Source of the DNA: Bradyrhizobiaceae bacterium
GTDB lineage: Bacteria; Pseudomonadota; Alphaproteobacteria; Rhizobiales; Aestuariivirgaceae
Assembly: GCA_947475225.1 (NCBI GenBank)
Contig: CANJMQ010000001.1
Coordinates: 62,001 to 126,000 of the forward strand
Direction of reading: 5' to 3'
Length of the DNA: 64,000 bases
The notes beneath the pieces are model-generated. The model was given only the letters and a program-made list of their open reading frames with translations, ran no database searches and was not told the origin of the DNA. The stretch's first letter is position 1. Each line of letters starts with the position of its first letter. Positions 10,273 through 33,205 of this stretch are shown piece after piece. Both the position numbers and the translations under genes were made by a program.

Positions 10273-11039
10273 CAGATGCGCCAGCCGGAGTGAATCGCCA
10301 CCACGCCGCCCGTCAGGTTGCGGTAGCTGACATTGGCGAAGCCCGCATCCTCGATCATCGCCTTGAAATCATCCTGCCTCGGGAAGGTGCGGATCGATTC
10401 GACAAGATAGCGATAGGGATGGCCATCACCCGTCACGACCTTGCCGATGGCGGGGACGACAGCAAAGGAATAGGCATCATAGACCTTGTCCATCAGCGGC
10501 ACGTCGACCTGGCTGAACTCGAGACAGAGGAAGCGTCCCCCGGGCTTCAGCACCCGGTATGCTTCGGCGAGTGCCTTGTCGATATGCGTGACGTTGCGGA
10601 TGCCAAAGGCGATGGAATAGCCGTCAAAGGTCTTGTCCGGAAAGGAAAGCGCCTCGGCATTGCCGACAGTAAAGCTGCAGCGGCCAAGAAGCCCCTCTGC
10701 TTCCGCCCGCTTTCTGCCTTCGCCCACCATCTCGGGCGATATGTCGGCGACCGTCACCCGAACATTGGGACCACCGGCGCGCAGGATACGGAATGCGATG
10801 TCGCCCGTTCCGCCGGCCACGTCGAGGTGGTTGAAACCCGCCTGTCCGCGCGGCGGGTTCAGCATGGCCACGAAATCGTCCTTCCACAACCGGTGCAGAC
10901 CGCCGGACATCAGGTCATTCATCTGGTCATAGCGCTCGGCGACCTTGGAGAAGACCTCGTTCACGAGGCCCTGCTTCTCGCCCTCGCCTACCCGGCGAAA
11001 GCCGAAGGCGACGTCCTGTTCGTTGCTCTTGTCTGTCAT
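10272..11039 (-). CDS. ubiE: Demethylmenaquinone/ubiquinone C-methyltransferase
   Basis: '[21 protein letters not shown]', '[14 protein letters not shown]', '[16 protein letters not shown]'. Confidence 0.95.
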
Positions 11040-11063
11040 GGGAGGAACTCTAGCGGCAAACTC

Positions 11064-12620
11064 TTAGCGTTTCAGCATAGACTTGATTTCACCATACCGC
11101 ATCGCGCCTGACACGTGGGCGAGCAAAAAATAGCTGATGATGCCGCCCGAGACGAGCACCGCAAGCCCCCAGGCGGCCGCCAGGAAGCCTGCGTGTTCTG
11201 CATAATTTCCCTGAAGAACCCAGGCTCCTGCCAGAAGCAATCCCCCCATCCCCAAGCCTGATGCGACAATCCGAGGCAGGCGGTGACGTGAGCGCTCGTC
11301 CAATGTGAATAGTCCACGCCGCGAGAGGGTGACACCCAGCAGTATCGTGTTCGTCCAGGCGGCAAGTGATGTCGCCAGCGCAATCCCGACATGGCCCATG
11401 AAGCGGGAGAGAAGAATACTTCCGACCACATTGACGACCACCGAAATGACCGCGAAACGCATCGGCGTCTTTGTATCCTCGCGGGCGTAGAAGCCGGGTT
11501 GGAAAACCTTGGAGAGCGAGAAGGCCACAAGTCCCGATGCAAACGCGAGCAGTGCCGGCGCCACTGCAAAGGTATCGGCGCGATCAAATGCACCGTGTTC
11601 GAAGACGGTGTGGATGATGGGGTGTGGTATTGCCATCAGAGCGATGGCCGCGGGAATGGTCAAGAACATCGAAAGTTCCAACGCGCGGTTCTGGCTGTTG
11701 AGAGCTCCTGTTTCATCGCCGGCCCGCAGGCGGCGTGACAGGTCTGGCAACAGCACCACGCCGATCGCCACGCCGATGACCCCCAGCGGCAACTGATAAA
11801 GCCGGTCGGCGTAATAGAGGAAGGCGACGGCCCCTGGCAGCGTCGTGGCGATCATGGTCGCCACGACCAGGTTGATTTGCATCACGCCACCCGAGACGAT
11901 ACCGGGAATGGACAGCTTGATGACCCGCTTGACGTCTGGAGTCAGCCGTGGCCAGCGTGGCACAAGACGCATACCTGCGCGGCGGCAGGCAATGGCAAGC
12001 AGCGCGTATTGCGCAATGCCTGAGGCAAATAAGCCCCAGGCGAAGATATAGCCTGTCTCAGGTGTATTACCGGTGGCAAGTATCCATGCCACCACGTTGG
12101 AGGCGATCATCACCACGTTAAGCAGAATGGGCGCCGCTGCAGCGGCAGTAAAGCGATTCAAGCTGTTCAGGACACCCGATTGCAGCGCTGTCAGCGACAT
12201 GAACAGCAGATAAGGAAAACAGATGCGGGTGAGGTCCACCGCCAGCCGAAAGGTTTCTCCGCTCGCCTTGAAGCCGGGAGCGATGACATAGATCACTACC
12301 GGCATGGCAATCATCGCTGCGGCCGAGAACACAATGAGCCAGGCGAGAAGGAAGGAAAAGACCTCGATAGCGAAATCCCGCGCCTTGGCTTCACCCTTAC
12401 CTTCAACGCACTTGGCGAAGAGCGGCACGAAGGCATTATTGAATGCACCTTCTGCAAACAGGGCACGGAACAGGTTCGGAAATCGTTGAGCTACAAAGAA
12501 AGCCTCTGCGACAAAGCTCGTTCCGAGGGCGAAAGCGATCAACTGATCCCGAACGAACCCCAAGACACGGCTGATGAGCGTGAGGCCGCCTACAGTTGCT
12601 GCCGATCTGAGCATCGACAT
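11064..12620 (-). CDS. murJ: Lipid II flippase MurJ
   Basis: MviN family: 'ISRVLGFVRDQLIAFALGTS...FVAQRFPNLFRALFAEGAFNNAFVP'. Confidence 0.95.
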   Translation of the reverse strand: MSMLRSAATVGGLTLISRVLGFVRDQLIAFALGTSFVAEAFFVAQRFPNLFRALFAEGAFNNAFVPLFAKCVEGKGEAKARDFAIEVFSFLLAWLIVFSAAAMIAMPVVIYVIAPGFKASGETFRLAVDLTRICFPYLLFMSLTALQSGVLNSLNRFTAAAAAPILLNVVMIASNVVAWILATGNTPETGYIFAWGLFASGIAQYALLAIACRRAGMRLVPRWPRLTPDVKRVIKLSIPGIVSGGVMQINLVVATMIATTLPGAVAFLYYADRLYQLPLGVIGVAIGVVLLPDLSRRLRAGDETGALNSQNRALELSMFLTIPAAIALMAIPHPIIHTVFEHGAFDRADTFAVAPALLAFASGLVAFSLSKVFQPGFYAREDTKTPMRFAVISVVVNVVGSILLSRFMGHVGIALATSLAAWTNTILLGVTLSRRGLFTLDERSRHRLPRIVASGLGMGGLLLAGAWVLQGNYAEHAGFLAAAWGLAVLVSGGIISYFLLAHVSGAMRYGEIKSMLKR

Positions 12621-12625
12621 AAGGG

Positions 12626-15388
12626 TCAGGCCTTTATCGGCGCTGGCTGCGCTGCTGGTTTGAGGATGTTGGCAAGCGCGTTCTCGATCTGCTTGTGGCG
12701 GGTCGTATTCTCGATCTTGGCACCCGTCAGGTCTGTCACGTAGAACACGTCCACTGCCTTCTCGCCAAATGTCGTAACATGTGCCGAGGCGATGTTGAGG
12801 TTGAGTTTGTAGAGGGCCTCAGTGAGATCATAAAGCAGGCCGATGCGGTCAAGACCGTTGATCTCGATAACCGTGAAGCGGTTTGAGGACTGGTTGTCAA
12901 TGATGACGCGCGGTTCCACCGTGAAGGCCTTGATGCGCTGCTGAGGCTTGTAGGCCTTCGCTACGGCTTCCTTCAGCCACAGTTCACCTCGCAAGGCTTT
13001 GCGCACCAGCTCTGCAATGCGTTCCGCCCGTCGGCGCTCGTCTTCTTCGTCCGGAAATTCACGCTGGATCAGTATGGTATCGAGTGCCATGCCATCCGTC
13101 GTCGTGAAGATCTGAGCGCCGGCGATGTTGGCGCCCGCCGCCGCGCAGGCGCCGGTGATGAGGGCCAGCAGTCTTGGATGGTCCGGGGTGTAGATCGAAA
13201 GTTCGGTGATGGCCGTGAAGGCATCAGTCTCGAAACTTGTGACAACACTTTTGGGAGAGGCTTCAGAGATCATCTCCGCATGTTTTACTTGCTTGTCGGT
13301 CGAGCTGCCGAGCCAGTAGGCGTCATAGTGGCGCGCGGCATAGGCCGTCTTCTGCTCGTCGCTCCAGCTTGGCATGCGCGCGAAGAATGCGCCTTGGGCG
13401 CCATTCACGCGCTCCTTGCGGGAGACGGCCGTGTGTCCGCCTGTCAGCACCGGTTCTGCTTCCGTGTAGAGTGTTCGCAACAACTGGCCCTTCCAGCCAT
13501 TCCACACGCCCGGTCCAACGGCCCGGATATCGGCAACCGTGAGGATGATCAGCAGTTTCAGACGCTCCACGCTCTGCACGACAGCGCAGAAGTCCAGGAT
13601 GGTCTTGAAATCGTTGAGATCGCGCATTTGCGCGGTTTCGCTCATCAGCAGGTGATGGCGGATCAGCCATGCCACGGTTTCCGTCTCGGAGGCCGTGAGC
13701 CCGAGCCGAGGGCAAAGTTCCCGCGCGATGCGTTCGCCAGCGATCGAATGGTCCTCCTTGCGGCCCTTGGCAATGTCATGCAGGAAAACGGCAACATAGA
13801 GGAGACGGCGGCTGGTGATCGTTGGGAAGATGGCCGTCGAGAGCGGATGATCCTCCGAGAGCCTGCCGCGCTCGATTGCCGAGAGGTGACCCACGGCGCG
13901 GATCAGATGCTCGTCCACCGTATAATGATGATACATGTTGAACTGCATCATCGCCACGATGCGGCCGAAGGCCGGGATGAAGCGGCCGAGCACACCCGCT
14001 TCGTTCATCATGCGCAGCACGATGTCTGGATTTTCGCTGGCAGTCAGCAGTTCGAGGAAGATCGCATTGGCTTCGGGATTGTCGAGGATGTTGCGGATGA
14101 GGCCCAGTGACTTGCGCAACAGTTTCAGCGCGTCGGGATGAATTTCCGCGCCGTGCCGACCCGCCACCGCGAAGAGTCGTATGATGTTGACTGGATTCTT
14201 TGTGAACACGTCAGGAGAGCTTGGCACCACGCGGCCGCTCTCGACACGGAAATCCGGAGCATCACGGAGCGTTCCGGATGTCTTCGAGATGAGCCGTCCA
14301 AGGACTCGCCCCAGCCCCGGTGCATCCTTGACCTGCTGGGCCTCGAGGCTGGCGCAGAGAATACGGGTGAGGTCACCCACGTCCTTGGCGACGAGAAAGT
14401 AGTGCTTCATGAAGCGTTCGACGTGCTTCAGCCCGCCATGCGCCTTGTATCCGAGACGCTCGGCAATGTCGGACTGGCGATCGAAGCTCAGCCTGTCGTT
14501 GCCGCGCTTCGAAAGGAAGTGCAGGTGGCAGCGTACTGCCCACAAGAAGCGCTCGCACTTCTTGAAGATGGCGAGTTCTTCATGGCTGAAGGCACCCTTC
14601 TCTGCAAGCTCGTCCGTGGCATTGGTCGCATAGATGAACTTGGCGATCCAGAATAGCGTGTTGAGGTCGCGGAGACCTCCCTTGCCGTCCTTTACGTCTG
14701 GCTCGACGATATAGCGACTCTCGCCTACCTTCAGGTGCCGGCGGTCGCGCTCGCCAAGCTTGTCAGCAATGAAATCCCTCGCACCCTTCGAAACGATCTC
14801 GCGGCGGAATTCGCTGGCAAGGCGCTCGAAAAGTGCTTCGTCACCACAGATGAACCGGGCTTCCAGTATGGCCGTAAGAATGGTGTTATCGGACTTCGCA
14901 AGCCTGATGCATTCATCGATGCTGCGTGTGGCGTGACCGACCTTCTGGCGCGTGTCCCACAGGCAGTAGAGAATGAATTCAACGATGTTCTGCACCCGCT
15001 CGGTCTGGCGCGTTGGGAGCACGAAGAGGAGGTCGATGTCAGAACCTGGCGCCAGCGTCCCGCGGCCGTAGCCACCGACAGCAACGACGGAAATCCGCTC
15101 TTCGGGTCCGTTCGACGGATACAGCGTTGTATTGGCAAGGTCAAAAAGGCTGCGGATGATCTCATCTTCGGTGACGCTCAGTGATTCCGCGCAGCGCGTG
15201 CCATCGCCATCGGCGATCAGCTGAGTTTCCGCCAATGCATGCGACTGTTCCAGAACAGCCTTCAGCACCTTCACAATAGCAGGACGCAAGCCGGCTTTTG
15301 TCGTGCCGTTCTCTGCTACCGCCGAAGCGAGTTCACCGCGTAACTGATCGGGTTTCACGAAGCGTTTCGGAGCAAGTGCGGCCCTCAC
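12626..15388 (-). CDS. glnD: [Protein-PII] uridylyltransferase
   Basis: 'AVGGYGRGTLAPGSDIDLLFV', HD domain 'LHDIAKGRKEDHS', C-terminal ACT domains. Confidence 0.95.
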   Translation of the reverse strand: MRAALAPKRFVKPDQLRGELASAVAENGTTKAGLRPAIVKVLKAVLEQSHALAETQLIADGDGTRCAESLSVTEDEIIRSLFDLANTTLYPSNGPEERISVVAVGGYGRGTLAPGSDIDLLFVLPTRQTERVQNIVEFILYCLWDTRQKVGHATRSIDECIRLAKSDNTILTAILEARFICGDEALFERLASEFRREIVSKGARDFIADKLGERDRRHLKVGESRYIVEPDVKDGKGGLRDLNTLFWIAKFIYATNATDELAEKGAFSHEELAIFKKCERFLWAVRCHLHFLSKRGNDRLSFDRQSDIAERLGYKAHGGLKHVERFMKHYFLVAKDVGDLTRILCASLEAQQVKDAPGLGRVLGRLISKTSGTLRDAPDFRVESGRVVPSSPDVFTKNPVNIIRLFAVAGRHGAEIHPDALKLLRKSLGLIRNILDNPEANAIFLELLTASENPDIVLRMMNEAGVLGRFIPAFGRIVAMMQFNMYHHYTVDEHLIRAVGHLSAIERGRLSEDHPLSTAIFPTITSRRLLYVAVFLHDIAKGRKEDHSIAGERIARELCPRLGLTASETETVAWLIRHHLLMSETAQMRDLNDFKTILDFCAVVQSVERLKLLIILTVADIRAVGPGVWNGWKGQLLRTLYTEAEPVLTGGHTAVSRKERVNGAQGAFFARMPSWSDEQKTAYAARHYDAYWLGSSTDKQVKHAEMISEASPKSVVTSFETDAFTAITELSIYTPDHPRLLALITGACAAAGANIAGAQIFTTTDGMALDTILIQREFPDEEDERRRAERIAELVRKALRGELWLKEAVAKAYKPQQRIKAFTVEPRVIIDNQSSNRFTVIEINGLDRIGLLYDLTEALYKLNLNIASAHVTTFGEKAVDVFYVTDLTGAKIENTTRHKQIENALANILKPAAQPAPIKA

Positions 15389-18099
15389 GATTGCCAGGCT
15401 CCCAGCAAGCTCTTGAGCTCATAGACCAGCGCCAGCGCATCCCGTGGTGTGAGTTCATCGGCGACAACCTGCGCGAGCTTGGTCTCGACGGCGCTTTCCC
15501 GGGGTGCGGGCGGCTGTGGCGCTGCAGCAAACAGCGGCAACTCATCGATGAGGCCTGCCGCGGGGGCCTTCGACCCTTCGCGTTCCAGCTTTTCCAATAC
15601 CTTTCTTGCCCGGCTGATCACCGCGGGTGGAAGCCCCGCGATCTGGGCCACATGAATGCCGTAGGAGCGATCGGCAACGCCTGCCACAACCTCATGCAGG
15701 AAGATGATCTCGTCCTGCCACTCCTTCACCTTCATCGTTGCATTGGCGAGGTGCGAAAGCCTGGACGCGAGCTGTGTCAGCTCGTGGTAGTGGGTGGCGA
15801 AGAGCGCACGGCACTTGTTCACGCCATGCAGATGCTCGAGTGTTGCCCAGGCTATGGAGAGGCCGTCATAGGTGGCGGTTCCACGGCCGATTTCGTCGAG
15901 AATCACGAAGGACTTCTCTGTGGCCTGGTTGAGGATTGCTGCCGTCTCCACCATTTCGACCATGAAGGTGGAGCGCCCGCGCGCCAGGTCGTCAGCAGCA
16001 CCCACACGGCTGAACAACCGGTCCACCGCACCAAGATGTGCATCCGTGGCTGGAATGAAGGATCCCATCTGCGCGAGGATGACAATCAGCGCATTCTGGC
16101 GGAGGTAGGTGGACTTGCCGGCCATGTTGGGGCCAGTGAGAAGGCAGAGACGCCTGGCGTCGCCTGATATCTCGCAGTCATTGGCAACGAACGAACCCGA
16201 TGCCTGGTCCTGCAGCGCGGCCTCGACCACTGGGTGCCGTCCGCCACGCACCGTGAAACAGGTTGAATCGTCGACGCGTGGACGAACGTAACGCCGCCGT
16301 TCAGCGACCTCGGCCAGCGCCGATGCCGCGTCGAGCTGTGCGGATGCATCGGCGATCTTCGAAAGGAGGTCGCGGCGCGCCGTGACGCGGGTACAGAGGG
16401 CGGAGAAGATTTCCTGCTCCAAGGCCAGTGCTCTTTCCGCTGCCGCTGCGATGCTCTGGTCCAGCGAGGCAAGTTCAGTGGTAACGAAGCGCATAGCGCT
16501 TGCGACCGTTTGGCGGTGGATGAACAAACCGGCCTTGTCGGGTGCCTGCAGCGCGGATGCCGAACTGGCTGGCACTTCAATAAAGTAGCCGAGCACATTG
16601 TTATGCTTCACCTTCAGCGACTTGACACCTGAAACTTCGCAATAGCGCGTCTGCAGGCCGGCGATCACATGGCGTGTTTCGTCACGAAGCGAGCGGTTCT
16701 CGTCAAGATCGACGGAATAACCTTTCTTCACGAAGCCACCGTCGCGCGCGAAGTTGGGCAGGTCTACGTCAAGTGCGGCATCGAGTTCACGTGCCAGGTC
16801 GAGATCGCTCCAACTCAGTGTCTCGCAGAGCGAGTCAAGGTTTTCGGGCAGACCGCCGATGGTTGCGCTGGCTGCCAGTCGGTGCGCAAGGTGGCCGGCG
16901 ATCATAAGTCCGTCACGTATTCCGGCAAGATCGCGCGGGCCACCGCGTCCGATGGTGACACGACCCAGGGCGCGCTCAAGATCAGGCATGGAGGTGAGTA
17001 GCTTGCGAGTGTCCTCACGAAGTGCGGCATCGGCGACGAAATGCGCCACATCGTCCAGCCGGCGGGCGATGGCGTAGGGGTCACATTGCGGGTTTGACAG
17101 CCTGGTCGCGATGCAGCGGGATCCCGCTGCCGTAACCGTCAGGTCGATCACGGAAAGGAGGCTGCCGCGCCGCTCGCCCGCCAGCGTGCGGGTAAGTTCG
17201 AGATTGGCGCGCGTCGCAGGGTCGATGAGCATGACCGAGGAAGCAACCTCGCGACGGGGCGGGCGAAGGTATGGCAGTTTACCGGCCTGGGTGATGACAA
17301 TATATTCGAGTAATCCGCCGAGTGCGGACACTTCGGCGCGCGAAAAATTGCCAAAGCCGTCCAGCGCCTTGACGTCAAACTGCTCCTTGAGCCGCCGCTC
17401 GGAGGCCAGAGAATCAAAGCGGACGGAAGGAAGTGGCGTTACCGGTGCACCAGCCCGGTCCAGCAAGCTGGTGAATTCGGGGTCGGCGAGCAGAGCGTCA
17501 GCGGCGATGATCTCACGGGGATCGAGCCGGGTGAGATCAGCGGACAGCCGTGTGGAGGCAGTCTGCATGACCGCCAGCTCACCTGAGCTGATGTCGGCCC
17601 AGGCAATGGCCATCTCGCCCGTTGCCTTGCTGCGGGTGACGCTCGCGAGGAAATTGTGGCTGCGGGAATCCAGCAGATTGTCCTCGGTCAGCGTGCCGGG
17701 GGTGACCAGGCGAACGACGTCGCGCTTCACCACTGACTTGGAGCCGCGTTTCCTTGCCTCGGCCGGGTCTTCAAGTTGCTCGCAGACGGCCACGCGGTGG
17801 CCCATGCGGATCAGTTTCTGGAGATAAGCGTCTGCGGCGTGAGCGGGTACGCCGCACATGGGGATGTCCTCGCCCAAATGCTTGCCGCGTCTGGTCAGCG
17901 TAATGCCGAGGGCAGTGGCTGCAATCTCCGCGTCTTCGAAGAAAAGCTCGTAGAAATCGCCCATGCGGAAGAACAGCAGGCTGCCCGGGTTCGCCTGTTT
18001 CAGAACCAGGAACTGTGCCATGACGGGCGTTGCGCGGCTGGAGGTCTCCTCCCCCGCTCCCTCGCCCATATGGTCCATCTCGGTCACGGTGCCTTCCAT
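15385..18099 (-). CDS. mutS: DNA mismatch repair protein MutS
   Basis: 'LLTGPNMAGKSTYLRQNALIVILAQMGSFIPA', 'DEIGRGTATYDGLSIAWA'. Confidence 0.97.
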   Translation of the reverse strand: MEGTVTEMDHMGEGAGEETSSRATPVMAQFLVLKQANPGSLLFFRMGDFYELFFEDAEIAATALGITLTRRGKHLGEDIPMCGVPAHAADAYLQKLIRMGHRVAVCEQLEDPAEARKRGSKSVVKRDVVRLVTPGTLTEDNLLDSRSHNFLASVTRSKATGEMAIAWADISSGELAVMQTASTRLSADLTRLDPREIIAADALLADPEFTSLLDRAGAPVTPLPSVRFDSLASERRLKEQFDVKALDGFGNFSRAEVSALGGLLEYIVITQAGKLPYLRPPRREVASSVMLIDPATRANLELTRTLAGERRGSLLSVIDLTVTAAGSRCIATRLSNPQCDPYAIARRLDDVAHFVADAALREDTRKLLTSMPDLERALGRVTIGRGGPRDLAGIRDGLMIAGHLAHRLAASATIGGLPENLDSLCETLSWSDLDLARELDAALDVDLPNFARDGGFVKKGYSVDLDENRSLRDETRHVIAGLQTRYCEVSGVKSLKVKHNNVLGYFIEVPASSASALQAPDKAGLFIHRQTVASAMRFVTTELASLDQSIAAAAERALALEQEIFSALCTRVTARRDLLSKIADASAQLDAASALAEVAERRRYVRPRVDDSTCFTVRGGRHPVVEAALQDQASGSFVANDCEISGDARRLCLLTGPNMAGKSTYLRQNALIVILAQMGSFIPATDAHLGAVDRLFSRVGAADDLARGRSTFMVEMVETAAILNQATEKSFVILDEIGRGTATYDGLSIAWATLEHLHGVNKCRALFATHYHELTQLASRLSHLANATMKVKEWQDEIIFLHEVVAGVADRSYGIHVAQIAGLPPAVISRARKVLEKLEREGSKAPAAGLIDELPLFAAAPQPPAPRESAVETKLAQVVADELTPRDALALVYELKSLLGAWQS

Positions 18100-23269: not shown

Positions 23270-24161
23270 TCACGCCACAGCGACGAAGGCCGAAAGCTTT
23301 TGCCTGTAGCTCAGTGCTTCGGCGATGTGGATGCGCGCCACCTGTTCTTGGCGTTCGAGATCTGCAAGTGTGCGGGCCACCCGGAGCACGCGGTGATAGC
23401 CACGCGCCGAAAGCTTCATGGCATCCGCCGCCTCGCGCAGCAGGCTGAGGCCGGGTGGGTCGGGTCTGGCGATTTCTTCCAATAAGGCTCCGTCGGCTTC
23501 GGCATTGGTACGAAGTCCGGGTTTTCCGAGGCTGGCGAAGCGCTTCGCCTGCATCTGCCGGGCGGCCAGCACGCGCTGCGCCACGTCCCGGCTTGCTTCC
23601 TTCGGCGGGGGTAGCGTGAGGTCGGATGCCTTCACGGCGGCCAGTTCGATCTGGATGTCCATACGGTCGAGAAGTGGCCCCGAGATGCGAGCCTGGTAGT
23701 CCGCCGCACAGCGTGGTCCGTTGCGGCAGATATGGCCCGGCTGCCCTGCGAATCCGCATTTGCAGGGGTTCATGGCAGCGATCAGCTGGAACCGGGCGGG
23801 ATAGGTGATGTGATAATTGACCCGTGCCACCACCGTCTCGCCGGTCTCCATCGGCTGGCGAAGGGACTCGAGAACGCGCGGCTGGAATTCGGGAAGCTCG
23901 TCGAGGAACAGCACGCCGTGGTGCGCCAGCGCCATCTCGCCTGGCTTGGCACGCAGGCCCCCGCCGACCAGTGCCGGCATGGACGCCGAGTGGTGGGGTG
24001 CGCGGAACGGACGCCGCCTGGACAATTGGCCATTGGACAGTTCTCCCGCCAGCGAGGCGACCATGCTGATATCCAGCATCTCGCGCGAGTCCATCGGTGG
24101 CAGGATGGACGGCAGGCGCTGCGCCAGCATGGATTTTCCCGCACCAGGCGGTCCCACCATC
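23270..24161 (-). pseudogene. comM: 3' (AAA+ ATPase) part of comM/yifB, separated from its 5' part by the integrative element
   Basis: Starts 'MVGPPGAGKSMLAQRLPSILPPM', ends 'YRQKLSAFVAVA'; in frame with 31484-32122 after removal of the insert. Confidence 0.93.
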
Positions 24162-24186
24162 AGAAAGTGAAGACACTTAAGACCCT
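24152..24186. other. attL (left junction, core AG at 24162-24163)
   Basis: tcccaccatcAGaaagtgaagacacttaagaccct: comM sequence up to AG, element sequence after it. Confidence 0.85.
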
Positions 24187-24194
24187 TAAGACCC
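24177..24194. repeat. Tandem 9-bp direct repeat (TTAAGACCC)x2 at element left end
   Basis: ttaagacccttaagaccc read directly; first copy lies in the attP half-site. Confidence 0.8.
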
Positions 24195-24580
24195 TACAAT
24201 AGTCCCCGCAGCCGCCACGGCATTGTGTACCGGCCTGTTGCAGCTCATCTGCATTTAGGTTTCCACCATCTCAAATTTCAGCCTGATCGAACCATAGATT
24301 CGCTGGCTATATTTCTGCTTCTGCCTGTCAACGAACCGCCTCGGGCTAAATCTTGCGTCTCTAATTGTGGCGGCGGTTATGAAGGTGACCAAGATGTTAC
24401 ACACCAGTGTAGTCAGGTTGCTGAATAGCTGAAGGATGGTATCGTGAATCAGCGTTCCAATCCGGCGGCACCTGCCTTCCTAAGTGTTTCCCCGGATTGC
24501 CGAACTCCTGCCGTCACTTAGAAGTTGTTACCCAGATGGGATGCGGACCTTGATAACAAGGGCGATTCTGTGGGGGAACG

Positions 24581-26542
24581 ATGAAACTCTTGAAGCGCAG
24601 CCTTGTCCTGTCGTGCGGCGTGTCCGCGTCTGCCCTTGTTCTGGCGATCAATGCCGGGGCGAATGACTTTCCAATCACCACCGGCAATTCGCCGGTAACC
24701 GTCACCCAGACACTCACCACGGGCGAGGTGGGGACGGTGCAAGAAGGTGGCGTGATCGACGTCACTTCTGGCAACGGCATCGAAGCCACTGCCGCTGGCG
24801 TCACGGTGAACAACGCGGGGTCAGTGACGAGCGGCGATAAAAATGGGATTTTAGTACTGGGTGAAAGCACAGTCACCAACACGGGGACGGTGACTGGCGG
24901 CGGCGAAAACGGCATCGCAGCCTTTGGCAACGGCAACACGATCACCAACTCGGGCACGTTGACGGGTTTTTACAAGGGCATCTTCGCCCAAGGCTCCAAC
25001 CTCAAGATCACCAACTCGGGGACAGTGGCGGGCGGGTCCGCGGGCGGGAGCGCGGACATCGGCATCTACGCCCAAGGCGACAACAACACGATCACCAACT
25101 CGGGGACGGCGGCCGGCAACGGCGGCATCATAGCCGTTGGCTCCAACACCACGATCACCAACTCGGGGACGATGACGGGCGGCAACATAGGCGTCTTTGC
25201 CATTGTCAACGACAGCACGATCACCAACTCGGGCACGGTGACAGGCGGCAACGGCGGCATCCTCGCCTATGGCAACGGTAACACGATCACCAACTCGGGC
25301 AAGATCATCGGTGGCGGGGCTGCGGTTTCTTTTGGTGGCAGCGACAACACCCTGACGCTTCTGTCCGGCAGCAACGTGCAGGGGATGCTGGATCTAGCCG
25401 GAACGGGTGGCAACACGCTGGTGATCGGGCGCGGTCTCAGCACGGTCTTCACCTATACGGGCGGTGATAGCGTCATCATCGACACCAACGGTATGCCTTT
25501 TGTGTCTTCCAAAGGCGTTCTGGCGGTGGTCGATCCCACCCTGTTCTCGGCTGAGGGCGACATGCTGAACGACCTGACGCGCTCGCTGGCCGACGTGGTC
25601 GATGCGCGGCTTGGGTCAGCCCGCTCCGGCCACGGCGCTGCCAACATGGTGGCAGCAGCACCCACCGGCATCGTGCCGACGGCGGATGTGCCGGATGCGG
25701 CTGAGCCTCAGTCCGTGGTCTGGGCGGCGGGTATCGGCAACTACCGCAGTCAGGATTCCAACGGCATCTATGACGGCTTCGACTCAACCCTCGGCGGCTT
25801 TGCAATTGGTGCCGATGGCGTGTTGTCATCGGGCACCCGGCTGGGTGGCTTCGCGGGCGCCAGCTTCGCCAGCCTCAACACCGATGCGGGAACGCAGGAA
25901 ATTGATGCCAACAGCTACTATGCTGGCCTTTACGCTGGCTTCACCATGTCGGAGGCCTTCCTGAACCTCGCGCTGACGGGCGGCTACACCAGCCAGTCCA
26001 CCAGCCGCGACGTGCTGAACAACATGGTTGTGGGCGGTGTTGAACAGGCCAAGGGCGACCCGAACGGCATCTTCATCAGCCCATCGGCGACGATTGGAAC
26101 GGATATTGAAACCGGCGGCATGATCTTCACGCCAAGCCTCAGGGCACGGTATGCGGGCCTGTTCATGGACAGCTATGACGAGAACGGCTCGACGGCTGAC
26201 CTCTCGGTTGACTCACGCTCGATCAACCTCTTCGACCTGCGCGGTCAGGTTGCCTTCGCGATTGCGCCGATGCAGACCAATGGCGGGCATTTCGATGCCG
26301 CCCTGCGTCTGGGTGCCGATGCCACCTACACCAACAGCGAAGATGTCAACGCCACGCTGCTGGGCCAGTCGCTGAACTTCAACGTCAACGATGACGACAC
26401 CACGGTGCGCGGCTTCGCCGGTCTCGACCTTGCCTACGAGACGGACAGCGGCGCCAACTTCACCCTCACCGGCGAAGCGGGCTATGACACCAGCGACGCG
26501 CTCACCCTCACGGGCACCGCCGGTCTCGCCTGGGCGTTCTGA
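24581..26542 (+). CDS. Type V autotransporter with 22-aa repeat passenger and C-terminal beta-barrel
   Basis: Signal peptide MKLLKRSLVLSCGVSASALVLAINAGA; repeated 'TITNSGTVTGGNGGI.A.GNGN'; autotransporter-like barrel ending '...AGLAWAF'. Confidence 0.85.
   Translation: MKLLKRSLVLSCGVSASALVLAINAGANDFPITTGNSPVTVTQTLTTGEVGTVQEGGVIDVTSGNGIEATAAGVTVNNAGSVTSGDKNGILVLGESTVTNTGTVTGGGENGIAAFGNGNTITNSGTLTGFYKGIFAQGSNLKITNSGTVAGGSAGGSADIGIYAQGDNNTITNSGTAAGNGGIIAVGSNTTITNSGTMTGGNIGVFAIVNDSTITNSGTVTGGNGGILAYGNGNTITNSGKIIGGGAAVSFGGSDNTLTLLSGSNVQGMLDLAGTGGNTLVIGRGLSTVFTYTGGDSVIIDTNGMPFVSSKGVLAVVDPTLFSAEGDMLNDLTRSLADVVDARLGSARSGHGAANMVAAAPTGIVPTADVPDAAEPQSVVWAAGIGNYRSQDSNGIYDGFDSTLGGFAIGADGVLSSGTRLGGFAGASFASLNTDAGTQEIDANSYYAGLYAGFTMSEAFLNLALTGGYTSQSTSRDVLNNMVVGGVEQAKGDPNGIFISPSATIGTDIETGGMIFTPSLRARYAGLFMDSYDENGSTADLSVDSRSINLFDLRGQVAFAIAPMQTNGGHFDAALRLGADATYTNSEDVNATLLGQSLNFNVNDDDTTVRGFAGLDLAYETDSGANFTLTGEAGYDTSDALTLTGTAGLAWAF
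24870..25310 (+). repeat. In-frame tandem coding repeats (63-84 bp, mostly 66 bp)
   Basis: 'atcaccaactcggg' starts at 24941, 25007, 25091, 25154, 25220, 25286. Confidence 0.9.
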
Positions 26543-26689
26543 CGACGGATTGGAACCGCCCGGAGTTAGAACTGCAAGCCAATTGCGGCCATTCGCAGCA
26601 CCCGCTGCTTCGATGGTGATGAAGGGTACTTCCTTAGACTAGGATGTGCAGCTACTTCAAACCCTGTATCTTCTCAGTCGTTTAATCCG

Positions 26690-27013
26690 TTAGTGGCCCT
26701 TGTTGGCGTCCGCCTCAGCCAGCAAGGCCTGAAGCTCGGCAAGGTCTTCGGCCTTCCGCTTAGCTTCCTGTGCAGCCTTGTCGGCCTCGGCCTTTGCATT
26801 ACGCAACAGCCTATCCCGATGCTTCTGTCGCTGTGCTTCCTCGTCCTTGGCCTTCAGCTTGAAGAACGTCTTGCCCCGGTTCCTCCGTTCCGCCGTCTGC
26901 TGGCTAACGAGCCGCAGCGCGTTGGTCCTCGCCTCGGCATCTTCGTCAGTCGCAGCACCCATAGCCACCTTGCGGAAGCTACGGCTCAGTCCCTTGATTA
27001 GTCCGAAGCTCAT
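26690..27013 (-). CDS. Small charged, probably coiled-coil protein
   Basis: 107 aa rich in A/E/K/R; ATGA overlap with upstream ORF. Confidence 0.65.
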   Translation of the reverse strand: MSFGLIKGLSRSFRKVAMGAATDEDAEARTNALRLVSQQTAERRNRGKTFFKLKAKDEEAQRQKHRDRLLRNAKAEADKAAQEAKRKAEDLAELQALLAEADANKGH

Positions 27014-27852
27014 GCTTGATCCTCGTCATCAAGGTCCTCGTCACCCTGCCAGTAGTCTTGCATCGCTGGCGGTAGCCTATCCGAGATCAGCTCCACCGCC
27101 CGTGCAAACCGCTCCGGGTTGGCGATGATCTGCTGACTGCCTACCGCCCGGGTCACGCTCATCGCCATCATCACGGCTGCACGTTCCTCTGCGGTGTCGC
27201 TAACTTCGACGATCTTCTGTCCGTTCTGCAACATCCTCGTCTGACGCCAAGTGTACATCGACGGATTTAGTCCGTTGTCCCAGTCATCTTGCATTGCTGA
27301 TACAGCCTTGATGGCCTTCCTCATGTTGATGATCGTTGATTTCTTGATCGTGGTTGCATCGACAATCTCAGGGATCGTGTACTGCCCTGTGAGCGTCATC
27401 CGCCAAGCCGCCTCAAGCTTGTCTTCCTTGTTCATCACCAGCTTGTCCTTGGAGTTGGCAGTGTTGGCCGCAGCGATGGCCGCGTAGACGTCACCGTCAA
27501 GAACGGTCACATCCACGTAGGCATCAACCTTGTCCTTGTTCGCCTCGTTCAGTGCCTTCACCGTGGCCCACAGGCGGTGGTGTCCATCGATCACGTACCA
27601 AGTCTTACCGCTCCACCACACCAGCAGCGGGGGCATCTTCGCACCGTTCTCGATGTGCTTCTGAAGCTCCTTGATGTGGTCCTCACGATTGGCCTTGGCC
27701 GTCACCCGTGGCTGGAAGGCACCAGTAGCGAACCTGATGTCCTTCGCTGGTAATCTTGAGGGAATCCCTGGCGCTGGCTTACCGCTGGATCGTTCTTCCA
27801 GAAGCTTCGCCAAACTACTGTCGAAGCCTACTGCGGCGTTAGGTACGTTCAT
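27010..27852 (-). CDS. ParB/Srx-like nuclease-fold domain protein
   Basis: 'HIENGAKMPPLLVWWSGKTWYVIDGHHRLWATVKALNE' resembles ParB N-terminal 'xDGHHR' motif; HTH-like region 'YTIPEIVDATTIKKSTIINMRKAIK'. Confidence 0.75.
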   Translation of the reverse strand: MNVPNAAVGFDSSLAKLLEERSSGKPAPGIPSRLPAKDIRFATGAFQPRVTAKANREDHIKELQKHIENGAKMPPLLVWWSGKTWYVIDGHHRLWATVKALNEANKDKVDAYVDVTVLDGDVYAAIAAANTANSKDKLVMNKEDKLEAAWRMTLTGQYTIPEIVDATTIKKSTIINMRKAIKAVSAMQDDWDNGLNPSMYTWRQTRMLQNGQKIVEVSDTAEERAAVMMAMSVTRAVGSQQIIANPERFARAVELISDRLPPAMQDYWQGDEDLDDEDQA

Positions 27853-28499
27853 GCGGCTTCTCCCTTGGTGATCGTCTGCATTATGTTGTGTTTCAGTTCC
27901 GTCTTCTCGACCTCACGCTCCCGCCAAGTCTTAGCCATTGCGTATCCAAAGCTGACCAGTGTCGGCACAAGTGTCGATCCGAGATGCCGCAAAGCTGAAG
28001 CCTTCAGGTACCGCTTGCTAACGTCGATGGCTCCCGTCTTCCGCAGTGTCCGAACGGTTCCCTTGTGCAAGCTCCACCGCAACGCTCTTGCACTGGCGAT
28101 GGCGATACTCTCTTGGTTTGGGAACCGCTTGTCGTTGAGCTGGATGTACCAGCCAAGGCACAACAGATCGACAAGCACCTGATCAGTGCCGTCACCTGTC
28201 GCATCCACGAAATCGATGGCAGCGTAGTACCTGTCCAGCATTCCGACCCCGGTGGCGTTCATATCGTCCACGATGGCTTGCTGTTCTTCCTTCATCTTGG
28301 CGAAGTAGGCGTCGATGTCCTTCTTCACTCCCGTCCTGTTCATCTCTTGTCGAACAACATCCGCGAAGGGTCTGACTTCTCGGCGGTCTATCGGCGTCAC
28401 CGTAGGGTGGCCGTGCTTGCTTCTACGGTCTGCATGTGTCCGGCACAGCGTACCGAACAAGGCGTTGGTGCTGCATCCGGCAGCGATACAATGCGTCAT
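27849..28499 (-). CDS. Hypothetical protein with N-terminal Zn-finger-like motif
   Basis: 'CIAAGCSTNALFGTLCRTHADRRSKHGHPT' (CxxH...HGHP) followed by unrecognised domain; ATGA overlap with downstream ORF. Confidence 0.65.
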   Translation of the reverse strand: MTHCIAAGCSTNALFGTLCRTHADRRSKHGHPTVTPIDRREVRPFADVVRQEMNRTGVKKDIDAYFAKMKEEQQAIVDDMNATGVGMLDRYYAAIDFVDATGDGTDQVLVDLLCLGWYIQLNDKRFPNQESIAIASARALRWSLHKGTVRTLRKTGAIDVSKRYLKASALRHLGSTLVPTLVSFGYAMAKTWREREVEKTELKHNIMQTITKGEAA

Positions 28500-28796
28500 A
28501 TCTAAATCCTTCTATGTTTGTGGGCTGACACCTAGCAGGACACAGACGCCCAATAAATCTGTACCCGATGTAGTTACATTAATGAACCGCTGCGACAGGG
28601 CCTCCTTGGGCCTCGCCTCACGGTTCCTGTTCACAATGTCAGTCAGCGGCTGAAACCACGCACCCGTGGCAGGGTCTAAACTCGGCTCAGTTTCAAGTGT
28701 TGTGACCACCAGCGAAAGGGATGGCACAACATTGGAACAATAGCAAGTTTCGGACCCTAAGGCTGCGCAGAAGCGACCATATATGTGCCGGAAGCG

Positions 28797-29342
28797 TCAA
28801 GTTTCCTTGGTCTTGAGATACACCGCTTGGCGGCTGATGCCGTACATCTTGCCGATCTCGGTGGCACCCAAGCCTTCAGCCAGCAGGGCCTTGACGGTGG
28901 CAGCGCCGACCTTGGGCTTGCGACCCTTGTATGCCCCGGCGACCTTGGCCTTGGCAATGCCAGCCGCTTGCCGCTCTCTGAGGAAGTTCCTTTCCATCTC
29001 GGCCACCAGCCCAAGTACCGTCATCATGATCTTGCCTTCGATGCCGCCTGTGCTGATGGCGGGGTTGAGTACCCGCAAGGTTGCGCCCTTCTGTTCGATC
29101 TCGAACACCACATTGAGGACATCGCGGGTATCTCGTCCAAGCCTGTCCAGCCGCTGCACGACAAGCTCGTCACCCGGACGGAGGAACTCCAGCACGGTGG
29201 CAAGCTCTGTCCGTCCGTCCCGGCTCTTGCCGCTGATCTTCTCGCCCCTGATGATTGTGCAACCAGCGTCCCGCAGGGCTTGTTCCTGAATGCCGTAGTC
29301 CTGTTGAACCGTGGATACTCTCGCGTAGCCGATGCTTGTCAT
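28797..29342 (-). CDS. Small serine recombinase (resolvase/invertase family)
   Basis: 'IGYARVSTVQQDYGIQEQAL', 'GDELVVQRLDRLGRDTRDVL', C-terminal HTH 'GLGATEIGKMYGISRQAVY'. Confidence 0.95.
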   Translation of the reverse strand: MTSIGYARVSTVQQDYGIQEQALRDAGCTIIRGEKISGKSRDGRTELATVLEFLRPGDELVVQRLDRLGRDTRDVLNVVFEIEQKGATLRVLNPAISTGGIEGKIMMTVLGLVAEMERNFLRERQAAGIAKAKVAGAYKGRKPKVGAATVKALLAEGLGATEIGKMYGISRQAVYLKTKET

Positions 29343-29357
29343 GTCTGTTCTCCTTGG

Positions 29358-29476
29358 TGACAAGTTAGCATCTAAAGCTTGCTTGGCGCTCTGTCAAGTA
29401 TTGTCTTATGGACCCTAAATTGTCGTTGAAACCGTCAAGCTGGAACCGACACGTTAGCGAGTACCGTAACTTGTCA
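29358..29476. promoter_or_regulatory. Putative res site upstream of resolvase
   Basis: 10-bp perfect inverted repeat TGACAAGTTA (29358-29367)/TAACTTGTCA (29467-29476) with further GACAA/TTGTC/TGTC motifs between; abuts resolvase start. Confidence 0.5.
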
Positions 29477-29520
29477 GAGGACAGGGCGCTGGCTGCTGTA
29501 CGTCCCTCATCGCTAGCAAT

Positions 29521-29616
29521 CTGGTAGGTTACATTACTGGTATTTCATACAACCTCAAGTACATACCACCGTGGTAGCCACCTACCAGAAACCTGTATCA
29601 GGTGTGGTAGGTACCA
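29521..29616. repeat. Cluster of short palindromes based on TGGTA/TACCA and ACCT/AGGT
   Basis: CTGGTAGGT/ACCTACCAG (29521-29529/29580-29588), TACCACcGTGGTA (29564-29576), ACCTGtatCAGGT (29591-29603), TGGTAggTACCA (29605-29616). Confidence 0.75.
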
Positions 29617-29650
29617 TGTCCCTCAAGCCCACATCAGTTGCCATCAGTGT

Positions 29651-29830
29651 CCCTGCGGTGGCTGTGCGGGCGGCTGGATCAATACCCTGCGGTGGCTGGA
29701 TAGTAAGGGCCTGGAGTAGGCCTGGAGTGCTGGCATCGGCGTTAGCGGACCCGCCCTGCGGTGGCTGGATCAATTCCCTGCGATGGCCGTGATGTCCTCT
29801 TGAGATGAACGGTAGCTGCCCTGCGGTGGA
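29651..29830 (+). repeat. Five degenerate direct repeats of CCCTGCGGTGGCTGGATCAAT
   Basis: Copies begin at 29651, 29685, 29754, 29776, 29819. Confidence 0.8.
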
Positions 29831-29932
29831 GTAATCCGTCCGGGGTAGCGGGGGAGTTTGCGCCCTCGTCTATGTATTGATGGCCTTCCAAACTATTGCG
29901 TCAGGAAATCCGGCCCCCGTCTTCTGATGGAT

Positions 29933-31399
29933 CTATTCCTTGGGCCACCTGAACATGCCCGCAGTACTGCCCCCGGTCTTCCAGTGGGCCACGACCTCGC
30001 CCTCATCGAACAGTACCTCCACCCGATCCACCACGCCCTTCAGCGCAGCGTTGGCCGCGACCACATCGAACGGCACCGCAGCAAGCGCATCCACCGCCCG
30101 ATCCATCCTTGCCCTAACCAGTGCCGGGGCGTTGGCTTCGATCTCGTCATCGATTGCATCAAGTTCCTGTTCCATCCTGACCAAGTCAGCGTCCAACTCG
30201 GCCAACGCTTCACGGCCACCACGGCTCTTAAGCCCTTCGCCTATGTGGTCCCTCAGTGCGTCGATCTCTGTCACGATGGATGCCCTGCGGCTGGTGAGTG
30301 CGTCATCATCGGTGAGGTCCATGTCAACCATCGGGTTTAGTCTCCGAACGGCAAGTTCCACATCTCCGTAGCGCACCGCCTCGTACCGACAACCAGCACC
30401 CACACGGGCCTTGCTGCACACAAGGTACACATCGCGCTGGTTCTTCCCAATCCTGACCATCGTGCCACCACAGCGGCCACAGACGCCCACACCGGACAGC
30501 ACATTGCGAAGCACGACAGAGCCGCCGCCCTTGGCCTTATGCGTCCGTGTGGCTTGCCATAGTTCTTCACTGACGATGCGCGGGTAGTAGCCTTCGATTG
30601 GCTCCAGCGGCAGCCTTGTCTTCTTGCCGTTCTCGTTGGTGACCACATCATGCGGCACGTAGGTTCCCCTGACGCTGTCCGAGTTCAGCAGTTTGGTCAC
30701 CACGCCTTTGCCCCACATCTCACCCGTCTTGAGTGTCGGCACCTGTTCCTGATTTAGCATCTTCGCAATGGAGTGCTGACCATGACCATGTGCTGCTAGC
30801 TCAAACACCTTCAGCACCGCGCTGGCCTTGTCTTCGATCACCTCAAACCGATCTTCACTGACCTTTAACCATGTGGGGATGCGCTTGGTCACGATCTTGC
30901 CCGTGGTCCTCGCGTCGATCTTCTTCTTCCCCCACGCCGCCCGCACCCGCAGCGACTTGACCTTGCTCTCGTCGTTCGATCTGATCGTCATCGCTATGAT
31001 CATGAAGATCAAGTACGGCTCCTTGACCAGCCGCTCCTTGCTGTATCGCTGCTGATCCTTCAAGGTCACGACATCGATGTCCATCAGCAGAATGTCTTCC
31101 AGCAAACGCCGTGCCTTCATTGGGTCCATGCGCGTCAGACGATCAAGGTCTTCCATGATCAGTACGCTGCCCTTGTCGATCACGCCGAGCTTCACGGCAT
31201 CGATGAACTCAGCCAACTCGCCCCGGTCAGCGTTGGCACCGTGGAAGCCGCTCACACCCAAGTCATTGAAGCTGACATCCTGCAGGGTGATGCCATGCCT
31301 ATTGCAATACTCCGTCACGCCTTTCTGCTGACGTTCTAGCCCGTGGCCCTTGCGCTGTTCGACAGTGCTTAGGCGGCTGTAGAGATAGCCCTTGGTCAT
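29933..31399 (-). CDS. Large serine recombinase (site-specific integrase)
   Basis: 'KGYLYSRLSTVEQRKGHGLERQ' catalytic N-terminus, Recombinase domain, zinc ribbon 'CGRCGGTMVRIGKNQRDVYLVCSKARVGAGC', C-terminal coiled-coil region. Confidence 0.95.
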   Translation of the reverse strand: MTKGYLYSRLSTVEQRKGHGLERQQKGVTEYCNRHGITLQDVSFNDLGVSGFHGANADRGELAEFIDAVKLGVIDKGSVLIMEDLDRLTRMDPMKARRLLEDILLMDIDVVTLKDQQRYSKERLVKEPYLIFMIIAMTIRSNDESKVKSLRVRAAWGKKKIDARTTGKIVTKRIPTWLKVSEDRFEVIEDKASAVLKVFELAAHGHGQHSIAKMLNQEQVPTLKTGEMWGKGVVTKLLNSDSVRGTYVPHDVVTNENGKKTRLPLEPIEGYYPRIVSEELWQATRTHKAKGGGSVVLRNVLSGVGVCGRCGGTMVRIGKNQRDVYLVCSKARVGAGCRYEAVRYGDVELAVRRLNPMVDMDLTDDDALTSRRASIVTEIDALRDHIGEGLKSRGGREALAELDADLVRMEQELDAIDDEIEANAPALVRARMDRAVDALAAVPFDVVAANAALKGVVDRVEVLFDEGEVVAHWKTGGSTAGMFRWPKE

Positions 31400-31444
31400 T
31401 TGCGGTGGCCCCTGTAGCGGCACCCTTGCGGCACCGAACCTTCG

Positions 31445-32122
31445 CTATAAACGAATACAGGGTCTGGAGCAATCACACTTGAGGAAGTGGTGACCACCGG
31501 CGGCGGTGACTTCCAGCGCACGTTTTCCGGTTTCCTGCCCCTTGATGTCCCTGAGGTCGGGGAGTTGCTCCGTCTCGGTGGCGATGGCGGGCCTCGGGCG
31601 CGTCAGCACTTGTGTGCCCCGCACGTGATTGATCAACTGGATGAGGTTTTCTGGTGCCAGTATGTCAGCGTCTTCCGCTGCCCATGCGGCTTCCGGTCCG
31701 GAGACCTTGGGACAGATCAGTCCCATGTCTCGTGCATTCGCTGCGATGGCAGCGGGCAGCACGCCGGAAACTCCGATAAGTGCCCCGTCGAGGGCCAGTT
31801 CACCCATGGCCACGTAGCGCGTCAGGAAATCCTGGGCAATGATGCCCAGGGCGGCTAGCACCGCCAGCGTGATCGGAAGATCGAAGTGGCTGCCCTCCTT
31901 TGGCAGGTCGGCTGGCGAGAGGTTGACGACCAGCCGCTTGCCAGGAAGCGCGAGGCCGATGGCATGAAGCGCCGCCCGCACCCGTTCCCGGCTTTCGGCC
32001 ACGGCCTTGTCGCCGAGCCCCACGACGTTGAATGCCACCATGCCGGACAGGAACTGCGCCTGAACATCGACGGGGACTGCCTCGATGCCCTGGAATGCCA
32101 CCGTTGCCGCCCGAGACGTCAT
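31445..32122 (-). pseudogene. comM: 5' part of comM/yifB, now ending in element-derived 'KCDCSRPCIRL'
   Basis: 'MTSRAATVAFQGIEAVPVDVQAQFLSGMVAFNVVGLGDKAVAESRERVRAAL...VTAAGGHHFL' is YifB/ComM N-terminal domain. Confidence 0.93.
31459..31496. other. attR (right junction, core AG at 31482-31483)
   Basis: agggtctggagcaatcacacttgAGgaagtggtgaccac: element sequence up to AG, comM sequence after. Confidence 0.85.
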
Positions 32123-32182
32123 CCACTCACCTCCTGAGCCTGATGTTACAGGAGGTTGTAAAATTCGTCAAAAATTTCGTGT

Positions 32183-33205
32183 TCAGTCTGACGAATTGTC
32201 AGCTGTTGGTTCAGAATTCGGCTGGTTGACGTTTTGAGCGTTGATCCGCACTCGCTTCACGCGGCGCGGATCGGAGTCGAGAATCTCGAACTCGAGGCCG
32301 CTTTCGTGGCGGATGATTTCGCCACGCGCCGGAACGCGCCCGGCGATCTTGAAGATAAGGCCTGCGAGCGTATCCGCCTCTTCCTCCTCGTCCTCCGGAA
32401 GAAGGTCTACCGCAAGCAATGCTTCGAGCTTCGCCAAGTCGACACGCCCATCGGCGAGGTAGACGCCTTCTTCCACCGGCTTGACCTCAAGGCCCTCCTC
32501 GGTGTCGTGCTCGTCCGCGATATCGCCGACGATGACTTCGACGAGGTCCTCAATGGAGACGAGACCTTCGGTGCCGCCATATTCATCGATGACGATGGCC
32601 AGATGCGTTCGGCTTGCCTGCATCCGCACCAGCAGATCGGTTGCAGGCATGGAGGGCGGCACGAACAGCACCTCGCGGTTAAGGCCTGCCTGCTTGACGC
32701 TCGTCGACAGGGCAGTGGCCGCGATGTTGAGACCCGGCGGGGGCACCTTTTCGGTCTTCTCCGGCTTTTCGGTCTTCGTTGCCCGGCGTTTGCGCGCACC
32801 GCGCGCCGCCATCCAGCGCAGAAAGTCCTTCACGTGGATCATGCCGGTAATGCCATCCAGCGTTTCGCGATAGACCGGCATTCGCGAATGATTGGCGTCG
32901 ATGAACTTGGCCAGCAGCTCCTGCATGCTGTCCGCTTCGTCCACCGCAACGATATCGACGCGTGGTACCATCACGTCATCGACCCGGAGACCTGAGAACT
33001 CAATGATGTTAAGCATCATCGATTTTGCTTCTTCGCCCACCGTCTCGCCGGGATTCTGGGCTTCGTGGCTTTCGATGGCGCCTTCCAGGCTCTCGCGCAG
33101 GCCAACGTCCCGGTTGCGGCCAAATCGACTTCTCAGGCGCTGCCAGAGGCTCTCCCGGGTCGCTTCGGCGGGCGAGGTGCCGCCTATATTGTCAGGGTCG
33201 CTCAT
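32183..33205 (-). CDS. CBS-domain/CorC-HlyC-family transporter-associated protein
   Basis: 'MVPRVDIVAVDE', 'HSRMPVYRETLDGITGMIHVKDFLR', C-terminal CorC domain; next to ybeY. Confidence 0.9.
   Translation of the reverse strand: MSDPDNIGGTSPAEATRESLWQRLRSRFGRNRDVGLRESLEGAIESHEAQNPGETVGEEAKSMMLNIIEFSGLRVDDVMVPRVDIVAVDEADSMQELLAKFIDANHSRMPVYRETLDGITGMIHVKDFLRWMAARGARKRRATKTEKPEKTEKVPPPGLNIAATALSTSVKQAGLNREVLFVPPSMPATDLLVRMQASRTHLAIVIDEYGGTEGLVSIEDLVEVIVGDIADEHDTEEGLEVKPVEEGVYLADGRVDLAKLEALLAVDLLPEDEEEEADTLAGLIFKIAGRVPARGEIIRHESGLEFEILDSDPRRVKRVRINAQNVNQPNSEPTADNSSD

Follow-up and report, generated by a model that had tools for sequence, protein, structure and literature searches.

The analysed stretch of 64,000 nt (the window) contains three minus-strand ORFs that had been read as a translationally coupled operon. 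The ORFs were recovered as described, and both joints are 4 nt ATGA overlaps (Table 1). The operon is no stand-alone module of chromosome or plasmid. In a context that this reading had missed, it belongs to an integrative element which also encodes a large serine recombinase (the integrase) and a small serine resolvase, both located just upstream of the operon. The integrase gene adjoins one end of the element and probably starts with the ATG near 31399. In total the element carries six genes including the three ORFs, and no relaxase or transfer genes are present among those that can be recognised. No Rfam family was detected in the region 24000-32200, and a scan for sigma-70 promoters gave none.

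Table 1. Features of the integrative element and its target gene. Positions refer to the window.
Feature	Position	Strand	Remarks
comM C-terminal half, target gene	23270..24160	-	Pfam Mg_chelatase 2.9e-77
Integrative element, ~7.3 kb, inserted in comM/yifB	24160..31480	.	Split comM halves and junction sequences
Autotransporter with ITNSGT-type repeats, element cargo	24581..26542	+	Pfam Autotransporter 1.2e-32; repeats D1-D7
ORF3, charged, coiled-coil-like, 107 aa	26690..27013	-	Private to the window element; no relatives
ORF2, orphan ParB-like protein, 280 aa	27010..27852	-	Predicted NTPase-type N-domain with DGHHR, HTH, C-terminal domain
ORF1, zinc-knuckle and helical protein, 216 aa	27849..28499	-	Undescribed family of integrative elements
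Small serine resolvase, ~181 aa from ATG at 29342	28797..29342	-	Pfam Resolvase 3e-35, HTH_7 1e-6
CCACCGCAGGG, five copies, irregular spacing, one with mismatch	29651..29829	-	Candidate protein-binding sites
Large serine recombinase (integrase), 496 aa	29933..31423	-	Pfam Resolvase 5e-17, Recombinase 1.5e-13, Zn_ribbon_recom 1e-9
comM N-terminal half, target gene	31445..32122	-	Pfam ChlI 1.9e-35

According to the junction sequences the insertion point in comM lies between ...GGHHFL and MVGPPGAGKS. Of 37 genomes in the genus, 26 match the bridging comM query continuously, and one more shows an almost full, continuous match. In the window genome and in two further genomes (G010 and G017) comM is split at identical codons. 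It is probably split at this place in G018 as well, where the halves are located on two contigs, while for G020 the C-terminal half alone was found, at a contig end. The integrases of the three comM elements are related with 38-47% identity (window versus G017 46%, window versus G010 38%), and the resolvase of the window is 61% identical to that of the G017 element. With an encoded integrase, a defined site and intact empty sites in relatives, the window element has the anatomy of an integrative mobile element. comM is a recurrent integration site in this genus, interrupted by related elements in no fewer than three species and probably in a fourth. Insertion sites of related elements vary and include, apart from comM, positions beside tRNA-Glu (L008, L009 and L010) and beside tRNA-Thr (L011). 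The autotransporter gene, which harbours 63-84 nt repeats (ITNSGT... passenger), is encoded on the strand opposite to the remaining element.

Five of the seven CCACCGCAGGG matches in the window are found within 180 bp between the integrase and the resolvase gene. These copies are direct repeats and non-palindromic. A comparable array is no general trait of ORF2 relatives. A general iteron or parS motif was not found near ParB genes, arrays being no more frequent there than at a distance. Upstream of the resolvase gene (29520-29620) a ACCTACCA-type repeat occurs three times, with both orientations represented, and could form the res site of the resolvase.

Co-conservation of the three genes, named as a test in the sequence-only reading, was found for ORF1 and ORF2, which overlap in the window and in the loci L046 and L069 and are close to each other in L088; it does not extend to ORF3, which occurs in the window only. 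ORF3 is charged and helix-like, in agreement with the coiled-coil assigned before, and relatives were found neither in any locus retrieved nor in the 36 further genomes examined within the genus. For ORF1 and ORF2, by contrast, relatives matching over the full length exist in other genera and in other orders. Profiles built from non-genus members only score 60 bits for ORF1 and 209 bits for ORF2 of the window, while 200 shuffles of ORF1 reached 5 bits at most. Hence the observation of both proteins goes beyond chance.

ORF1 carries the expected zinc-binding arrangement (C4-x4-C9, C19-x2-H22 and KHGHP). The family is not covered by Pfam, NCBIfam or PHROGs. Of 398 genomes surveyed in the order, 29 encode a relative. 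It is spread across the Hyphomicrobiales and Rhodospira and is often located behind a resolvase. Outside the zinc motif ORF1 of the window is divergent: a non-genus profile lacking the zinc part scores 16.7 bits for it and 36-60 bits for its genus mates. Compared with the shuffles these values indicate that the family reaches beyond the zinc motif. The diversity of the alignment was too great for a pattern scan. A structure model based on six sequences (pLDDT 85) consists of an N-terminal zinc knuckle, helices, a hairpin of low confidence and a C-terminal helix of 49 residues. The helical part is unmatched in PDB and BFVD, in line with the C-terminal domain which the sequence-only reading was unable to assign. 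The first ~40 residues weakly resemble known HNH-type zinc motifs, as they occur in the N-terminal zinc knuckle of phage HNH endonucleases, and the matches to these phage proteins are short. In contrast to those enzymes, the rest of ORF1 is helical and the knuckle alone matches, without any match to an HNH domain. An HNH nuclease was thus rejected. In plasmid records ORF1 of L069 has one match, on a Microvirga plasmid; ORF1 of the window has none there, and neither has ORF1 of L069 in phage records.

For ORF2 both the ParB-type segment IDGHHRLWATV and the HTH noted before were recovered. The protein matches phrog_1033 (3.7e-16), as do all 12 members of the first family alignment. The family profile aligns to ParB, Spo0J and Noc chains of known structure, and these alignments run through the HTH (E ~1e-5 to 1e-3). 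An AlphaFold model (mean pLDDT 87) compared to the PDB by Foldseek gives ParB, Noc and Spo0J as best matches followed by KorB, whereby the superposition is domain-wise only with TM-scores of 0.24-0.39 by query length. Judged from profile and predicted fold, ORF2 is an orphan ParB-family protein with N-domain and HTH. Its phosphate-binding motif reads DGHHR in 47 of 54 members.

These matches bear on the idea that the operon is cargo for defence, counter-defence or nucleolytic attack, with ORF2 as a ParB/Srx-fold nuclease or a GmrSD-like effector. Weak matches to GmrSD_N (0.0013) and ParBc_2 (0.086) point in this direction, and type I restriction genes adjoin 11 of 45 ORF2 relatives. However, the family profile aligns to ParB through the HTH and not to nucleases, PADLOC defence families yielded no match for ORF1, ORF2 or ORF3, and ORF1-ORF2 follow the resolvase in the element backbone without the variation typical for cargo. 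Since profile and fold favour a ParB protein with HTH over the weak matches, the nuclease assignment was dropped and we consider a defence role very improbable.

The absence of ParA stated earlier was confirmed: none of 54 ORF2-family genes has a ParA-type Walker motif (KGGxGK[ST]) within 7 kb. ORF2 of the window also lacks the N-terminal motif for ParA binding, and among the 54 members only two internal, probably chance, matches were seen. A resolvase together with a ParB-like protein is a typical stability pair. ORF2 could hence be a true partition protein which borrows a ParA of the host or of a helper to stabilise the excised circle, as its ParB architecture would allow. SGI1, which uses the parABS of its helper plasmid, is a precedent for such hijacking (PMC10954446). 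Yet the window protein and nearly all relatives lack the ParA-binding motif, there is no ParA-type motif in the vicinity, and the exchange with helicases described below is left unexplained. ParA-less partition is therefore quite improbable in our view.

Among 61 near genomes, 5 encode an ORF2 relative, and these 5 belong without exception to the source genus. At E 0.001, 42 of 398 genomes from the order give a match, in some cases a weak one. Named carriers of relatives include Mesorhizobium, Bradyrhizobium, Aquibium, Methylobacterium and Cohaesibacter, and also Maricaulis, Rhodospira, Marinomonas, Aromatoleum and others. Neither plasmid nor phage records contain a match to ORF2 of the window; the same holds for ORF2 of L046 in plasmid records and ORF2 of L047 in phage records. 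Against viral contigs the window protein as single query returned nothing, and a 20-row alignment gave short matches in the DGHHR region only. In one locus (L074) the ParB-like gene is separated from a divergent ORF1 by a gene (8930-9400) whose product resembles, by eye, a phage internal virion protein, which suggests that some ORF2 relatives may belong to prophages.

The neighbourhood of ORF2 was evaluated for 45 distinct loci with good matches after removal of duplicates. Loci of the Desulfobulbus type (L091-L097) and L090, matching around DGHHR alone, were excluded from the tallies. With the exception of L061, where a recombinase is absent nearby, all loci (44/45) have a site-specific recombinase within 7 kb. 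A small resolvase is present in ~37, a few of which are possibly fragments of large ones, and an integrase in 33 (24 tyrosine integrases, 9 large serine recombinases). RNase H genes occur in 6 loci. The background amounts to ~79 resolvase-domain matches in 31 whole genomes of ~1.4-5.6 Mb, hence the association of ORF2 with resolvases is far above chance. Taken together, ORF2 relatives are a hallmark of integrative elements with site-specific recombinases. An ORF1 relative is found in 14 of the 45 loci. As 31 of the ParB-like elements do without, the ORF1-ORF2 pair is not obligatory.

In the ORF1 family a resolvase often lies upstream and the next gene is close or overlapping, whatever its class. 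Where a ParB-like gene follows, the junction is ATGA in the window and a GTGA or TGATG overlap in L046 and L069; in L088 (Rhodospira) the pair is either directly adjacent or overlapping, and in L007 and L010 a short gap separates the two genes. Further ORF1-partner junctions read TGATG in G017, TAATG in G005 and ATGA in G027.

Several other classes of protein take the place of ORF2. The strongest case of exchange is L145, the comM element of G017: its integrase and resolvase are those 46% and 61% identical to the proteins of the window, and ORF1 is present, with an SF2-helicase-like ATPase replacing the ParB-like protein. In L150 and L153 an AAA_25 protein follows ORF1 together with RNase H. 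This partner matches RSF1010 RepA (1.2e-4) and phage primase/helicase profiles (2e-19). A phrog_4756 protein is located behind ORF1 in L152 (8704-10107), L127, L128, L132 and L133. From these sequence comparisons the gene coupled to ORF1 is exchangeable, being ParB-like, RepA-like helicase, SF2-helicase-like ATPase or polymerase-like.

Some further observations concern these partners. SF2-helicase-like ATPases of ~630-650 aa are encoded behind ORF1 in L145 (4966-6867), L149 (10881-12788) and L154 (9100-11046); the family hardly matches Pfam and two members share the motif QALGRPxSRK. The motifs LDYRxxFxRLAY, RxGIKxxxNxxLF and LHDAVLVA of the phrog_4756 partner resemble, by eye, the palm of A-family polymerases, with no sequence match in the PDB that would support this likeness. 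In L152 the ORF1 module is followed by large, uncharacterised genes (10756-17000) that look like candidate defence cargo.

We favour the view that the operon serves the replication or maintenance of a small integrative element, with ORF1 constant and the ParB-like protein one among several interchangeable partners (probability roughly one half). The element would excise, and the resulting circle would be copied and/or kept. The resolvase would split dimers of this circle. ORF1, a zinc-containing and putatively DNA-binding protein, would act with the product of the coupled next gene. Because its helical domain has no known structural match, this role of ORF1 is a guess. In the window the partner would be a protein of predicted ParB fold which binds DNA of the element, perhaps at the candidate repeats at 29.65-29.83 kb, and may be switched by NTP. 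Sister elements would employ a RepA-type helicase, an SF2-helicase-like ATPase or a polymerase-like protein in place of ORF2. The partner classes would thus be alternative means to one job, presumably the copying or keeping of the excised circle. This reading is favoured since resolvases split dimers of circular DNA and since the genes that stand in for ParB encode proteins of replication type and come with RNase H. An integrative precedent is given by SCCmec (PMC7581432).

The main rival assigns a regulatory role to ORF2. ORF1-ORF2 would then control transcription of the integrase or excision functions and of the cargo, in the manner of a KorB-like repressor or activator, and would have no part in replication or maintenance. 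The structural matches of ORF2 include KorB (8qa9), a repressor with ParB fold, ORF2 has an HTH, and the repeats at 29.65-29.83 kb are flanked by the integrase and resolvase genes. Moreover, the nucleotide-switched, DNA-binding fold of the ParB family serves many roles (PMC12704722). However, the equivalents of ORF2 in sister elements are helicases and polymerase-like enzymes and not other regulators. A purely regulatory operon is thus possible, if rather unlikely. Within the replication/maintenance reading, the constant ORF1 might bring unrelated partners to an origin of the element, with a ParB-fold clamp replacing a helicase, e.g. as initiator or loader. This specific mechanism is speculative and we regard it as unlikely.

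Mobile elements commonly carry orphan ParB-like proteins, for most of which an explanation is lacking. Behind ORF1, ParB-like genes and genes of helicase or polymerase type replace each other, once in one and the same comM site of the genus. This natural experiment allows a definite, testable statement on the role of at least one class of orphan ParB proteins. It suggests an exchangeable set of genes by which small mobile elements are copied or kept. Independent of this, ORF1 as an unannotated family can serve as a marker for small relaxase-less integrative elements, which are otherwise overlooked.

The literature and family databases searched describe neither the ORF1 family nor the arrangement resolvase-ORF1-exchangeable partner, in keeping with the novelty claimed before; given partial coverage of the literature this is weak evidence. 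None of the three ORFs belongs to a Pfam, NCBIfam or PHROG Rep family, which agrees with the earlier statement that a recognisable Rep is missing. Orphan proteins with a ParB fold have been described from mobile elements as a class (PMC12704722), to which ORF2 belongs in general terms. The words 'integrase' and 'resolvase' are absent from the text of that survey, which also states that the nucleotide used by a ParB fold cannot be predicted from sequence. With canonical ParABS, Noc and KorB proteins ORF2 shares the ParB-type N-domain, HTH and C-terminal domain according to structural and profile matches. It differs by DGHHR instead of the usual GERR-type motif, by the lack of a ParA gene and of the ParA-binding motif, and by weak similarity to TIGR00180, which matches weakly in 2 of 20 family members. 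The hexameric helicase RepA of RSF1010 is of the type that follows ORF1 in L150 and L153, and is absent from the window element. The experimentally supported replication module of SCCmec, CCPol-MP-Cch2 (PMC7581432), offers a framework for our reading by its organisation. SCCmec and the window element are both integrative and possess large serine recombinases and a replication-type operon, the latter being predicted in our case. The SCCmec operon includes a helicase and a polymerase, whereas the copy in the window has a ParB-like protein instead.
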